64,000 bases of DNA from Thioalkalivibrio sp. AKL19 (GTDB taxonomy: Bacteria; Pseudomonadota; Gammaproteobacteria; Ectothiorhodospirales; Ectothiorhodospiraceae). Positions within the stretch are counted from its first letter, which is position 1. The number at the start of each line of letters is the position of its first letter. The position numbers and the translations under genes are program-made. Location: NCBI RefSeq assembly GCF_000420165.1, contig NZ_ATUK01000012.1, forward strand, positions 62,001-126,000, read 5' to 3'. Below the pieces are notes generated by a model, which searched no databases, was not told where the DNA came from, and worked only from the letters and a program-made list of their open reading frames with translations. This document shows, piece by piece, positions 2,530-22,166 of this stretch.

Positions 2530-4314
2530 TTACCCGGCCTGTTGCGTAGCGCTGGGGCGCAGGCGGATGCCCAGCTCACGCAGCTGCTTCTCGCCGACCG
2601 GGGCCGGGGCATCGGTCAGCAGGCAGGCGGCGGTCTGGGTCTTGGGGAAGGCCATCACGTCGCGGATCGAGTGGGCGCCGCTCATCAGCATCACCAGGCG
2701 GTCGAGGCCGAAGGCCAGGCCGCCGTGCGGCGGGGCGCCGAAGTTCAGGGCATCCAGCAGAAAGCCGAACTTCTCGCGCGCCTCTTCCTCACCGATGCCC
2801 AGGGCCTCGAACGCGGCCTGCTGCATCTCGGGGTTATGGATACGGATCGAGCCGCCGCCGACCTCGGTGCCGTTCAACACCATGTCGTAGGCGCGGGACA
2901 GCGCCTCGCGCGGGTTGGCGCGCAGCGCCTCCGGACTGTCCACCGCCGGGGCGGTGAACGGGTGATGCAGGGCGTACAGGCGCTTGTCCTGGTCGTCGTA
3001 TTCGAACATCGGGAAGTCGACCACCCACAGCGGCTGCCAGCCTGCCTCGACCAGCTCCAGGTCGTGGCCGATCTTCACGCGCAGCGCACCGATCGCCTCG
3101 TTGACCACCGAGGCCTTGTCCGCGCCGAAGAAGATCAGGTCGCCGGCGGCGGCCGCGGTCTTCTCCAGGATCTGCCGGGTCACGTCCTCCGGCAGGAACT
3201 TGAGGATGGGCGACTGCAACCCGCCCTCGATATCAGCCGGGTCGTTGACCTTGATGTAGGCCAGGCCCTTCGCGCCGTAGCGACCGACATACTCGGTGTA
3301 GACGTCGATCTCCTTGCGCGTGAGCTTGGCACCGCCCGGGACGCGCAGGGCGGCCACACGACCCTCGGGGTCGTTCGCCGGGCCGCTGAAGACCTTGAAT
3401 TCCACCGCCTGCATCACCTCGGTCAGCTCGGTGAACTCCAGCGGGATGCGCAGATCCGGCTTGTCGGAGCCAAAGCGGGCCATCGCCTCGGCATAGGCCA
3501 TGCGCGGGAACGGATCCGGCAGTTCCACGCCCTGCACCTCGCGGAACAGGTGGCGAATCAGGCCCTCGGTCACCTCCATCACGTCCGCCTCGTCGACGAA
3601 CGCCATCTCCATGTCCAGCTGGGTGAACTCCGGCTGGCGGTCGGCGCGCAGGTCCTCGTCACGGAAGCAGCGGGTGATCTGGTAGTAACGATCCATGCCG
3701 GACATCATCAGCAACTGCTTGAACAGCTGCGGCGACTGCGGCAGGGCAAAGAAGCTGCCCGGATGCGTGCGGCTGGGCACCAGGTAGTCACGCGCACCTT
3801 CCGGTGTGGCCTTGGTCAGCATCGGGGTCTCGAGGTCGAGGAACTCGCGGTCCTCGAGGAAGCGGCGCATGGCCGCGGAGACCTGCGCGCGCAGGCGCAG
3901 ACGCTGCTGCATCAACGGGCGGCGCAGGTCCATGTAGCGATAGCGCAGGCGGGTGTCCTCGCCGACGTCCTCGTCGTCCAGCGGGAACGGCGGGGTCTTC
4001 GCGGCGTTCAGGACCTCCAGCTCCAAGCCCAGGATCTCGACCGCGCCGGTGGTCAGGTCCGGATTCTCGGTGCCTTCGGGGCGCCGGCGCACACGGCCGG
4101 TCATGCGGATCACGTACTCGCTGCGCAGCTGCTCGGCGCGCGCGAAGACCTCCTCGCGGTCGGGGTCGAACACCACCTGCACCAGCCCCGCGTGGTCGCG
4201 CAAGTCGACGAAGATCACGCCGCCGTGGTCACGCCGGCGGTTGACCCAGCCGCAGAGGGTCACCTCCGAGTCGAGTTCGTTCTCGGTGACACGTCCACAC
4301 AGATGAGTTCGCAT
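2530..4314 (-). CDS. aspS: Aspartyl-tRNA synthetase, non-discriminating type by key residues
   Basis: A 594-residue class IIb synthetase of normal bacterial length. The start is set at the ATG at 4312-4314 (MRTHLCGRV), which matches family N-termini; an upstream in-frame ATG adds eight unlikely residues. The order is an N-terminal anticodon-binding OB fold (about 1-110), the catalytic core with motif 2 ([16 protein letters not shown]), a bacterial GAD insertion, and motif 3 (GLDRLVML). H30 (RRRDHGG) and G81 (RRPEG) correspond to the residues that mark the non-discriminating AspRS of Pseudomonas aeruginosa, in contrast to Leu and Lys in E. coli. It lies downstream of the DUF502 gene. Confidence 0.97.
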
Positions 4315-17585: not shown

Positions 17586-17618
17586 ACCCTTTCCAGCCAT
17601 CAACCACGGATGCCCCCG

Positions 17619-19331
<1,713 letters not shown>

Positions 19332-19375
19332 TCCGAGCAATCCGGAAGCCCCTGATGTCAAGAGGAGATTCACAC

Positions 19376-19404
19376 TTGACCCCCAACAACAGCCATGTGC
19401 TAAT
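19376..19404 (+). promoter_or_regulatory. Promoter of the DUF3800 leader
   Basis: TTGACC (19376-19381) is followed by a 17-bp spacer and GCTAAT (19399-19404), a good sigma70-type match in GC-rich surroundings. Transcription would start near 19411, at the base of the first hairpin of the leader. Confidence 0.6.
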
Positions 19405-19409
19405 CTCTA

Positions 19410-19528
19410 GCGAGTGAGTCGGGTACGCTGCCTCTCGCGGTGTGCGAAGTCGTTACTTCCCCGGCTCCCTTCATTTTTCAAAGGCTACCTCCGGGTAGCC
19501 TTTTCTGTATCCAGGGAAGGATCAGGTC
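19410..19528 (+). ncRNA. Candidate structured leader RNA upstream of DUF3800 (DUF3800-motif-like)
   Basis: Three hairpins can be drawn from the sequence. GCGAG (19410-19414) pairs with CTCGC (19434-19438). GAAGT-CGTT-ACTTC occupies 19446-19459. AAGGCTACC with a TCCG loop and GGTAGCCTT, followed by TTTTC, occupies 19480-19505 and looks like an intrinsic terminator. The DUF3800 ATG follows 24 nt later. Comparative genomics has described a series of 'DUF3800' RNA motifs (I to XI) located upstream of DUF3800 genes; whether this is one of them needs a covariance-model search. It could be an attenuator or a separate RNA of about 95 nt. Confidence 0.5.
19480..19505 (+). terminator. Terminator-like hairpin before DUF3800
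   Basis: A perfect stem (AAGGCTACC / GGTAGCCTT, extendable by one A-T pair) with a TCCG tetraloop is followed by TTTTC. It lies inside the leader, upstream of the DUF3800 ribosome-binding site, so it could terminate the leader or attenuate DUF3800 expression. Confidence 0.65.
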
Positions 19529-20227
19529 ATGCATCTTCTTTATCTCGATGAATCCGGGAGCGTTACCAACAAGAACGACAAGTACTTTGTTCTTGCAGGC
19601 ATCAGTGTGTTCGAGCGCCAGGCCCATTACATCGAACAGGATCTCAACTCGATTGCCGCCCGCTTCAATCCCGACTCACCCCACGAGATCGAACTCCACG
19701 GTTCCCCGATGCGCAGCGGGAAGAACAGCTGGCGCCGTTTCCCCAAGGAGATGCGTCACGCCGCCCTGATCGACGCCCTTCGGGTCATACCCGGACGGAC
19801 CTCCCGGGGTGTCCGGCTATTCGGGGGGGTGGTGAAAAAATCCGCCATTCCGGACGAAGACCCGGTAGAACATCTGTTTGAACAGCTTTGCAACCGTTTC
19901 GACCTGTTCCTGCGGCGGTTGTACACAAAGCATGACGACGCACAACGCGGACTCATCCTGCTGGACAAGTCATCCACGGAAACCCGAATTCAGACTCTCG
20001 CGCGTGATTTCAAGCACACAGGGCATACTTGGGGACGCACTCGGAACTATGCAGAGGTACCTGTATTTCTGGACTCTCAGGCCTCGCGCCTGATTCAGCT
20101 TGCCGATCTGGTCGCCCATGCCATTTACCGCCACCATGAACACCAGGACAGCGAGTTATTCCGAGAAATCGCGGGGTGCTTCGACCAGGAAGGGCCCACG
20201 GAACATGGCTACTATTTGCGCTGCTGA
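19529..20227 (+). CDS. DUF3800 domain-containing protein
   Basis: A 232-residue protein of the DUF3800 family. The N-terminal YLDESG (5-10) and the late DSQASRLIQLADLVAHAIY (182-200) are the two signature motifs; LLDKSST near 144-150 is a third conserved acidic patch. The distribution of acidic residues resembles an RNase H-like nuclease fold, but activity is not established. DUF3800 genes are patchily distributed, often in accessory or defence-related regions. Codon use and base composition are less GC-rich than in proS and the SLC13 gene on either side. An AAGGA ribosome-binding site precedes the ATG, and a hairpin-rich leader lies upstream. Confidence 0.9.
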   Translation: MHLLYLDESGSVTNKNDKYFVLAGISVFERQAHYIEQDLNSIAARFNPDSPHEIELHGSPMRSGKNSWRRFPKEMRHAALIDALRVIPGRTSRGVRLFGGVVKKSAIPDEDPVEHLFEQLCNRFDLFLRRLYTKHDDAQRGLILLDKSSTETRIQTLARDFKHTGHTWGRTRNYAEVPVFLDSQASRLIQLADLVAHAIYRHHEHQDSELFREIAGCFDQEGPTEHGYYLRC

Positions 20228-20330
20228 GCCTCGGGTTACCAGCACAACAACACTCACATGGCAGCACTCCACCCATCATCCTACCTAGGTTCTAAGTCTC
20301 GTCATTGACAGCATAAGCTTCACACTTGAG

Positions 20331-22166
20331 ATGGGAATCGTGTTCGGCCTGCTGGGGCTGACGATCCTGCTGTTCGTCACGGAGGTGATCCGGATCGACC
20401 TGGCGGCGCTGAGCGTGCTGTTCCTGCTGGGCATGGTCGCGCTGGTGCCGGGGGTCGCGCCGATCGTCGAGGGCGAAGCGCTGTTTTCCGGCTTCGCCTC
20501 GAACGCGGTGATCGCGATCATCGCGGTGATGATCATCGGCAAGGGGCTGGACCGCTCCGGCGTGATGAACCGCCTGGCGGACCTGATCCTGCGCTTCGGC
20601 GGGCACACCGAGCGCCGGGTAATGGCCACGACCTCGGGTGCGGTGGGCATCATCACCAGCTTCATGCAGAACATCGGCGCGGCCGCCCTTTTCATGCCGG
20701 TGATCAACCGCATCGGCGCGGCGGCAAGCATCCCGCGTTCGCGCCTGCTGATGCCGATGGGCTTCGCCGCGATCGTCGGCGGCACCCTCACGCTGGTCGC
20801 CTCCAGCCCGCTGATCCTGCTGAACGACCTGCTGCCGGAACATGTCGAGGGGTTCGGGCTGTTCGACGTGACGCCGGTCGGGCTGGCCCTGCTGGCCATG
20901 CTGATCCTGTACTTCGCCCTGTTCGGCAAGTGGGTCCTGCCCGCCCGCGATCCGCTGGGCGAAGACCCGGACGAGAGCCGTGTGCAGACCACCTCGGCCT
21001 GGTTCCGCGACGTCTACGGGATGGACTTCGGCGTGCGCGAGGCGCGTCTCGGCGAGGACAGCTCGCTGGCCGGGCGCAGCGTGGGCGACTTCGAGGCGGC
21101 CTTCGGCGTCCACGTGGTCGGCGTCACCACGGGGGACGAGACCCGCATCGAGCCGAACCGGGATGTCGAGCTGGAACGCGGCGCGCACCTGGCGATCCTC
21201 GGTCCGGTCAGCACGATCGACAAGACCTGTGACCAGACCGGGACGGTCCTGAAGGACGAACTGGACGTGTTCGCGCGCGCCCTGTCCGCCCGCCATGGCG
21301 GGATCGCCGAGATCATCATCCCGCCCGGCTCCGACCTGATCGGGCAGACCGTTCGCGACAAGGGCATGCGCCGCACCTACGGCATCTCGGTGCTGCGCAT
21401 CCAGCGCGGCGACGACCTGATCATCGACGAAGTCCCGGATACCGCGCTGAAGGCCGGCGACACCCTGGTCGTGCACACCCCGTGGGAGAACCTCCAGGCA
21501 CTGGAGGACGACCGCGCCTTCGTCGTGGTCACCAGTCGCTACCCGCGGCGCAAGCAAGAGGCCTCGAAGACCCACCGACCGCTGGCCGCGCTCGGCTCCC
21601 TGGCGCTGGGGCTGGGGCTGGTGCTGTTCACCGACCTCCCGCTGGCGCTGGCCCTGCTGGGCGGCGCGCTGGGAATGATCTTCAGCGGTGTCATCAACAT
21701 GGACGAGGCCTACCGCGGCATCAGCTGGAAGACCGTATTCCTGCTCGCCTCGCTGATCCCGCTGGGACTGGCGGTGGAGAACTCCGGCGCCGGCGAGTGG
21801 ATCGCGACCAACGGCATGCAGCAGCTGGAGGGGATGCCCGTGTGGGTGCTACAGGTCGCGGTCTTCCTGCTGACCACCTTCTTCACGCTGGTAATGTCCA
21901 ACGTCGGCGCCACCGTGCTGCTGGTGCCATTGGCAGTCAGCTTTGCGAGCGTCGCCCAGGGCATGGGCATCGACGCCGATCCGCGGGTATTCGCGCTGAT
22001 CGTCGCGATCGCCGCCTCCAACTCCTTCATCCTGCCCACCCACCAGGTCAATGCCCTGATCATGGACCCGGGCGGCTACCGTGTAGCCGACTACCTGCGC
22101 GCCGGGGCCGGCGTGACGGTGCTGTTCATGGTCGTCTCGCTGATCGTCATCAACCTGCTCTTCTGA
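20331..22166 (+). CDS. SLC13/DASS family anion transporter with two RCK_C (TrkA-C) domains
   Basis: A 611-residue membrane transporter. The N-terminal half has about six helices (VFGLLGLTILLFVTEV onward) and a SFMQNIGAAALFMPV hairpin typical of the family. Two RCK_C domains follow at about 225-305 and 310-395; the second contains VRDKGMRRTYGISVLRIQR. The C-terminal half repeats the fold, with VMSNVGATVLLVPLA and SNSFILPTHQVNALIM. This architecture is that of SAC1/SLT-type sodium:sulfate or related anion permeases, but the substrate is not proven. The ATG lies immediately after the right copy of the 11-bp direct repeat and has no good ribosome-binding site of its own. Confidence 0.92.
   Translation: MGIVFGLLGLTILLFVTEVIRIDLAALSVLFLLGMVALVPGVAPIVEGEALFSGFASNAVIAIIAVMIIGKGLDRSGVMNRLADLILRFGGHTERRVMATTSGAVGIITSFMQNIGAAALFMPVINRIGAAASIPRSRLLMPMGFAAIVGGTLTLVASSPLILLNDLLPEHVEGFGLFDVTPVGLALLAMLILYFALFGKWVLPARDPLGEDPDESRVQTTSAWFRDVYGMDFGVREARLGEDSSLAGRSVGDFEAAFGVHVVGVTTGDETRIEPNRDVELERGAHLAILGPVSTIDKTCDQTGTVLKDELDVFARALSARHGGIAEIIIPPGSDLIGQTVRDKGMRRTYGISVLRIQRGDDLIIDEVPDTALKAGDTLVVHTPWENLQALEDDRAFVVVTSRYPRRKQEASKTHRPLAALGSLALGLGLVLFTDLPLALALLGGALGMIFSGVINMDEAYRGISWKTVFLLASLIPLGLAVENSGAGEWIATNGMQQLEGMPVWVLQVAVFLLTTFFTLVMSNVGATVLLVPLAVSFASVAQGMGIDADPRVFALIVAIAASNSFILPTHQVNALIMDPGGYRVADYLRAGAGVTVLFMVVSLIVINLLF

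Follow-up and report, generated by a model that had tools for sequence, protein, structure and literature searches.

Between proS and a gene for an SLC13/CitMHS-type transporter, Thioalkalivibrio sp. AKL19 carries a compact unit consisting of a promoter-like sequence, a structured RNA of the DUF3800-VI kind, a terminator-like hairpin and a DUF3800 gene. Our favoured, though tentative, reading is that this unit is a stand-alone module of RNA and nuclease, gained horizontally, whose putative nuclease is held in check in a ToxIN-like manner. That it is an acquired module of this kind is suggested by its not being found in congeners, by its foreign composition and by the promoter-RNA-terminator-DUF3800 layout that recurs across the family, all read from sequence. 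The window referred to below is the whole 64,000-nt stretch analyzed here, and the features of interest in it are as follows.

17610..19331, plus strand: proS (prolyl-tRNA synthetase), left neighbor, with Pfam domains tRNA-synt_2b, tRNA_edit and HGTP_anticodon
19369..19379, plus strand: left copy of an 11-bp repeat, its last four bases being part of the -35 box
19376..19404, plus strand: promoter-like pair TTGACC-17-GCTAAT, directly 5′ of the RNA (score 9 in our own scan)
19416..19467, plus strand: DUF3800-VI RNA, a three-way junction (38.5 bits to RF02915, 41.4 bits to our model R2)
19480..19507, plus strand: terminator-like hairpin (stem 19480-19503) with a T-rich tail, between the RNA and the DUF3800 gene
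19529..20227, plus strand: DUF3800 gene (PF12686), 232 aa, with an RNase H2-like predicted fold and conserved D7, E8, D146 and D193
20304..22166, plus strand: SLC13/CitMHS-type transporter gene (PF03600), proposed native start ATT, its N-terminus compared with 12 congener loci
20319..20329, plus strand: right copy of the 11-bp repeat, within the native codons TTC ACA CTT GAG (F-T-L-E)

A first-pass annotation of the letters alone had proposed a promoter-RNA-DUF3800 cassette between two housekeeping-like genes, and the RF02915 and PF12686 matches, together with the promoter-like pair, bear this out. The RNA was detected in a permissive Rfam scan (gathering threshold, 35) and scored identically against R2 with filters on or off; it went unreported when the entire window was scanned with Rfam in fast gathering mode, which weighs against the observation. 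It lies just 5′ of the DUF3800 gene, as membership in RF02915 requires. The DUF3800 protein matches PF12686 at 84.1 bits (gathering threshold, 21; E 2.1e-23), its sole Pfam match at E 0.001, with no match to a known type III toxin family. The TTGACC hexamer (19376-19381) overlaps the left repeat copy and is followed, after a 17-base spacer, by GCTAAT (19399-19404), while the hairpin stem has arms of ten bases. Taken together, RNA and hairpin (19412-19516) fold better than 200 of 200 shuffled sequences (z -4.84). The unit contains no transposase or integrase, DUF3800 being its longest open reading frame (ORF), with overlapping ORFs of at least 60 aa lying outside the domain scan; the earlier description of RNA and gene as a self-contained unit without a transposase thus stands. 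As a representative of RF02915 and PF12686, with an RNA above gathering that forms a three-way junction directly 5′ of the gene, the window differs in nothing of kind and constitutes a new occurrence.

The surroundings of the unit point to acquisition. DUF3800 protein was found in 1 of 58 genomes, namely the source genome, and in none of 29 congeners (22 of them at least 90% complete). Likewise, among 30 genomes from the genus, only the source genome gave an RF02915 match. A class-wide sample yielded DUF3800 protein in 8 of 369 genomes and RF02915 in 1 of 369, the latter with filters so strict that the source genome's own copy escaped. As anticipated from the letters, the unit is less GC-rich than its flanks (0.560 in 19380-20318 versus 0.695 in proS and 0.679 in the SLC13 gene), and the GC3 of the DUF3800 gene is 0.67 versus 0.93. 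Searching with the SLC13 protein, we obtained 12 orthologous loci (L003-L014, 91 to 96% identity); the other congeners have SLC13 homologs of at most 66% identity, and their slots fall outside the comparison. The SLC13 gene directly follows proS, with nothing in between, in eight of these loci (L004, L006-L008 and L010-L013), and HigBA genes occupy the slot in the remaining four (L003, L005, L009 and L014), as judged from Pfam matches of HigB and HigA in L003 and of HigB in L014 and from ORFs in L009. As a side observation, the HigB gene of L005 appears by reading to be truncated and adjoins transposase-like sequence. Since HigBA fills it in four congeners and the RNA-DUF3800 unit in the window, the proS-SLC13 slot is one that takes small modules, and the unit was probably acquired there.

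To place the unit in its family, we used an alignment of six proteins (A1) as the query over genomes and viral contigs. The best 80 of 190 relatives were taken as genome loci, which come from Proteobacteria, Acidobacteria, Cyanobacteria, Bacteroidetes, Verrucomicrobia, Meiothermus and others, and the viral contigs contributed 11 loci; unlike A1, single-protein scans of genome and viral contigs returned nothing. By tblastn, relatives appeared in 51 plasmid records, chiefly of Agrobacterium, Escherichia, Klebsiella and Rhizobium, and two Pseudomonas phages proved to carry the unit. With the cassette of one Escherichia coli plasmid as a blastn query, 12 of 5,426 E. coli genomes were positive, on plasmids only.

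The RNA accompanies the gene more widely than the Rfam model reports. RF02915 exceeded gathering in L033-L035, L037, L070, L080, L085, L098, L108, L112 and L128, and the same scans did not report it in L036, L056, L057, L064, L075, L087, L091, L093, L094 and L105. Our own model finds the RNA in all ten of the latter, albeit weakly in L105 (E 0.26) and in L036 only with filters off. This modeling proceeded from seven sequences (R1), which gave 45 matches in 82 sources that omit near-duplicate and truncated loci, to a second model (R2) built from those 45 matches. R2 has 80 matches, 71 of them at E 0.01 or better; 77 adjoin DUF3800, and the other three lie away from it at E 2.7 to 4.3. With filters off, four plasmids first missed now match R2 (E 0.001 to 0.003), and L107 is then without a match. 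Some copies of the gene look broken: DUF3800 homology is split into two pieces in L040 and L046 (G078) and is likewise split in L041 (G391), where a transposase-like ORF lies between the pieces. In-frame stops in the DUF3800 stretches of L098 (4001-4681) and L091 (4001-4687) may also mark broken or frameshifted copies.

The fold of the RNA shows covariation in the 45 sequences. Of 882 cells, 98.3% are paired versus 79.2% after shuffling, 182 cells show double changes versus 61.4, and the covariation score is 0.679 versus 0.314, in an alignment that was fitted to the structure, which favors such a signal; the covariation collapses once pairing partners are slid.

For the layout of the family, we considered 69 plus-strand loci with an R2 match at E 0.01 or better, the window included. 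When the 60 bases before the RNA were scored with the -10 element placed 8 to 19 bases upstream, a promoter score of at least 8 was reached in 58 of the 69 loci, whereas among control positions taken from these loci the share was 6.3%. Our own terminator pattern occurs ahead of the start codon in 54 of 69, a count made without a shuffled control, as a separate hairpin in 28 loci and as the outer stem of the RNA plus a U run in 26. Because a promoter 5′ of the RNA and a terminator before the start codon both recur, it seems that one promoter feeds a short RNA and that only read-through reaches the gene. In seven loci (L086, L090, L094, L098, L121, L122 and L127), the start codon follows the outer stem and U run after only 7 to 8 nt, a gap too short to fit a Shine-Dalgarno sequence.

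This is the layout of ToxIN, in which one promoter serves a structured RNA, a terminator and a nuclease-like gene. We therefore picture the unit as follows. One promoter would yield an abundant RNA of roughly 60 to 100 nt ending at the terminator, and read-through would yield a little DUF3800 protein. This putative nuclease of the RNase H2 fold would be curbed by binding its own RNA, much as ToxI acts on ToxN, and loss of the unit or phage attack would free it. Carried by plasmids and phages without a transposase, such a unit may enter new sites through host recombination, examples being a cer-like Xer site in E. coli plasmids and a miaB-like gene with a 46-bp target duplication; in the window it would occupy the slot that some congeners fill with HigBA. 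Plasmid and phage carriage is indeed a feature of the DUF3800-VI family. The differences from ToxIN are a single RNA unit instead of tandem repeats and a DUF3800 protein with an RNase H2-like predicted fold in place of ToxN.

Several observations weigh against this reading. The RNA has one copy in the genome, whereas ToxI-type antitoxins are repeats, and repeated RNAs are what PMC8860590 describes for known type III systems. In the window, a strict consensus scan lists neither the cassette promoter nor the hairpin terminator, and the terminator count of the family, as said, is uncontrolled. Among RNA pairs, those with any double change number 13 versus 11.4 in shuffled alignments (56 of 500), not clearly above expectation. 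Finally, RF02915 is classed in Rfam as cis-regulatory, a role that is also compatible with this anatomy. The RNA could accordingly be a leader to which the DUF3800 protein binds, promoting termination before its own gene in the manner of an autoregulatory attenuator; the protein would then have another job, such as phage defense. The terminators between RNA and gene, including those in which the outer stem itself serves, suit such a leader, while an RNA that begins at the promoter and has its own compact, covarying fold speaks against it. Both models predict the same anatomy, and nothing here is decisive between them; we consider a cis attenuator nearly as likely as the ToxIN-like arrangement, although on balance still rather doubtful.

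An antisense role, in which the RNA would pair with the DUF3800 message as in type I systems, was also considered. The 5′ stem of the RNA (19414-19423) shows perfect 10-nt complementarity to 19670-19679 within the gene. Across 55 loci, however, matches of at least 10 nt number 3 versus 1.7 expected and those of at least 9 nt number 10 versus 5.4, and none reaches 11. With no clear excess, antisense pairing is not supported, and we regard it as highly improbable.

The predicted structure of the DUF3800 protein is of the RNase H2-type fold, and in 24 sequences D7, D146 and D193 are invariant and E8 nearly so; an RNase H2-type site would need four acidic residues together. It differs from RNase HII/HIII in that no PDB chain was matched by sequence and Foldseek gave TM-scores of only 0.44 to 0.47 in the best rows. 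Two reports describe DUF3800 proteins with an RNase H fold in CRISPR loci of the Cas12a2 and type VI-F kinds (PMC10910872, PMC12669027). Domain and fold are common to these proteins and ours, but both kinds lie in CRISPR loci and the Cas12a2-linked ones carry TPR domains (PMC10910872, PMC12669027), unlike the compact 232-aa protein with its own RNA in the window. Such precedents, along with the presence of units in phages and plasmids, raise the possibility of a defense ribonucleoprotein in which DUF3800 depends on the RNA as its partner. Yet visual inspection of the loci compared reveals no variable, guide-like stretch in the RNA, and the PADLOC matches, to candidate families, are only weak. 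The neighbors are mostly metabolic or of unknown type, although single ones match defense families. A defense ribonucleoprotein is thus possible, but clearly less probable than either of the two models above.

The neighborhoods give no constant partner gene by Pfam and PADLOC. Units sit beside many unrelated chromosomal genes, and 92 neighbor ORFs, picked from 167 by size and non-duplication, match 93 Pfam families, none of them present in more than three members. PADLOC matches of defense type among the neighbors are single, none being recurrent among the matches listed.

How, then, did the unit reach its place in the window? The first-pass annotation had pointed to an exact 11-bp direct repeat around the cassette, and we confirm that TTCACACTTGA occurs in direct orientation at 19369-19379 and 20319-20329, with no further copy in the window and only these two, both on one strand, in the 2,884,909-base genome. 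Chance was assessed as a shared 11-mer between two non-coding flanks of 84 and 103 nt. A Markov null gave such a match in 0.2% of 20,000 trials, in line with the value first estimated for one unit, while empirical pairs give higher rates: 35 of 2,433 (1.4%) for overlapping pairs of the same geometry elsewhere in the window, and 54 of 8,355 (0.65%) in other loci. Because these rates exceed the Markov null and a 64-kb window offers dozens of units, the repeat is moderately surprising at most.

The repeat had been interpreted as the target-site duplication of a mobile element inserted here. Its exactness, its uniqueness in the genome and the small chance of its occurrence are in keeping with this interpretation, as is the end of the left copy about 150 nt before the start codon, like that of the 46-bp duplication of L056. 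Under such a duplication, whatever directly precedes the right copy would have to be part of the insert, and native-like sequence there speaks against it. In each of the 12 orthologous loci, an ATG or GTG lies nine codons ahead of the ATG that the ORF finder chooses for the window; next come E, D or G, then three residues that vary, then F-T-L-E-M-G. In the window, the codons ATT-GAC-AGC-ATA-AGC (20304-20318) encode I-D-S-I-S ahead of the repeat-encoded F-T-L-E, so that I-D-S-I-S-F-T-L-E-M faces V-E-N-I-S-F-T-L-E-M in L009; D, S, I and S before F each occur at their own position in some congener. The SLC13-type gene probably has a rare ATT start at 20304 (within the stretch 20304-20333), nine codons before the ORF finder's ATG at 20331.

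Nucleotide comparison agrees. The 15 nt at 20304-20318 match L009 at 11 positions and the other 11 loci at 5 to 9. By comparison, when 15-mers were drawn from the window at every third base, only 0.18% agreed with any congener at 11 or more positions; among 131 15-mers from the non-coding parts of the unit, none had as many as 10 agreements. Aligned locally with L009, the right flank scores 19 (maximum of 60 shuffles, 16), and of the other 11 loci only L012 beats its own shuffles (12 versus 11). By the same approach, the 15 nt upstream of the left copy match congeners at no more than 7 of 15 positions, even when shifts of one or two bases are allowed, and the left flank taken more broadly rises above shuffles against none of the 12 loci; that congener alignment leaves the left border of the insert unfixed counts against our account of the site.

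From the native-like codons left of the right copy, the overlap of the left copy with the -35 box, where most relatives have their promoter, and the lack of any inverted repeat of at least 10 nt joining the two ends of the unit, we infer that the insert has its right border at about 20303 or further left and that the 11-bp match most likely reflects a chance similarity between the promoter end of the unit and the FTLE codons of SLC13. The matter appears to be a contest of two small probabilities, a chance repeat at 0.2 to 1.4% versus the smaller chance of in-frame, ortholog-like codons. Flanking repeats of at least 11 bp, moreover, show hardly any excess over the family (12 of 86 units versus 9.6 expected). 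We consider a target-site duplication very unlikely. It would imply a unit-free site of GATGTCAAGAGGAGA-TTCACACTTGAG, and native codons would imply ATTGACAGCATAAGC before a single TTCACACTTGA. In the proS-SLC13 junctions, compared among congener loci rather than conspecific strains, the unit is not found, and an exact TTCACACTTGA occurs in none of the loci examined, the homologous single copy being TTCACCCTGGA or a close variant.

Elsewhere in the family, movement has left clearer traces. E. coli plasmids NZ_CP104685 (3,604 bp, with the cassette) and NZ_CP107286 (2,573 bp, without it) have three annotated proteins in common and, the cassette apart, are 99.8 to 100% identical over the 2.1 kb compared. 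The cassette is bounded on either side by a copy of CAAC[A/G]GATGTTATGGTAAAT, of which the cassette-free plasmid has one, and a cassette-free Klebsiella plasmid (L055) matches up to the same borders. We take this sequence to resemble the central part and XerD arm of ColE1 cer. The pair fits cassette gain and cassette loss alike, and suggests a route of movement without a transposase. In L056, an exact 46-bp repeat flanks the unit, its right copy being the 3′ end of a miaB-like gene (named by reading). The unit of L072 is flanked on each side by the 3′ portion of a gene (383 bp, 90% identity), the left one being at a contig edge. In the Pseudomonas phages, the unit sits in a variable slot adjoining a BRCT-domain gene, where phage phi1 has a different sequence.

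A survey of flanking repeats in 86 units, with expectations from 2,492 same-locus pseudo-cassettes, extended the search for other repeat-flanked DUF3800 units that the first-pass annotation had proposed: barely any excess exists at 11 bp or more, as given above, and a distinct one at 15 bp or more (7 of 86 versus 0.38 expected). Among these seven, the 17-bp repeat of L093 has its left copy on a CRISPR-DR4-like repeat at 3718-3745 (33.5 bits, just below gathering at 35), and the repeats of L060, L063, L099 and L102 look dispersed and intergenic, so L056 and L036 are the remaining candidates. L060 also has a second repeated stretch 1.4 kb upstream, and L093, from Gilliamella, has another CRISPR-DR4 type repeat at 1348-1375. 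According to PMC3874152, some restriction-modification systems insert with long, variable target duplications. They too are transposase-less modules in unrelated sites, and the 46-bp duplication of L056 fits this pattern, while the window differs in that its 11-bp repeat is probably no duplication border. The idea of a mobile unit without its own transposase is in keeping with plasmid and phage carriage and varied sites, and the 11-bp duplication as its insertion mark is not supported.

The DUF3800-VI RNA motif is said to come from work by Weinberg in 2017. RNAs and proteins of this kind are catalogued in Rfam and Pfam, and the literature examined, of which most subscription journals formed no part, establishes no function and describes no toxin-antitoxin role for DUF3800; nor does an RNase H fold appear in the literature on type III toxin-antitoxin systems and RNA antitoxins among the matches listed. 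The present analysis contributes the survey of layout, the slot filled by HigBA and the empty site on a plasmid. DUF3800-VI units might, although we put this forward with reserve, represent an unrecognized class of RNA-controlled toxin-antitoxin or abortive-infection modules. In such a class, an RNase H2-fold nuclease would be kept inactive by a constant three-way-junction RNA from the same promoter. One-kilobase, transposase-less cassettes ranging from Proteobacteria to Cyanobacteria and Bacteroidetes would, conceivably, spread through recombination systems of the host, among them XerCD acting at the resolution sites of plasmids. Given the anatomy that recurs, the absence of a constant partner gene, the chromosomal slot shared with HigBA in congeners and the carriage by small plasmids and phages, an RNA-controlled nuclease module is a directly testable proposal for these units.
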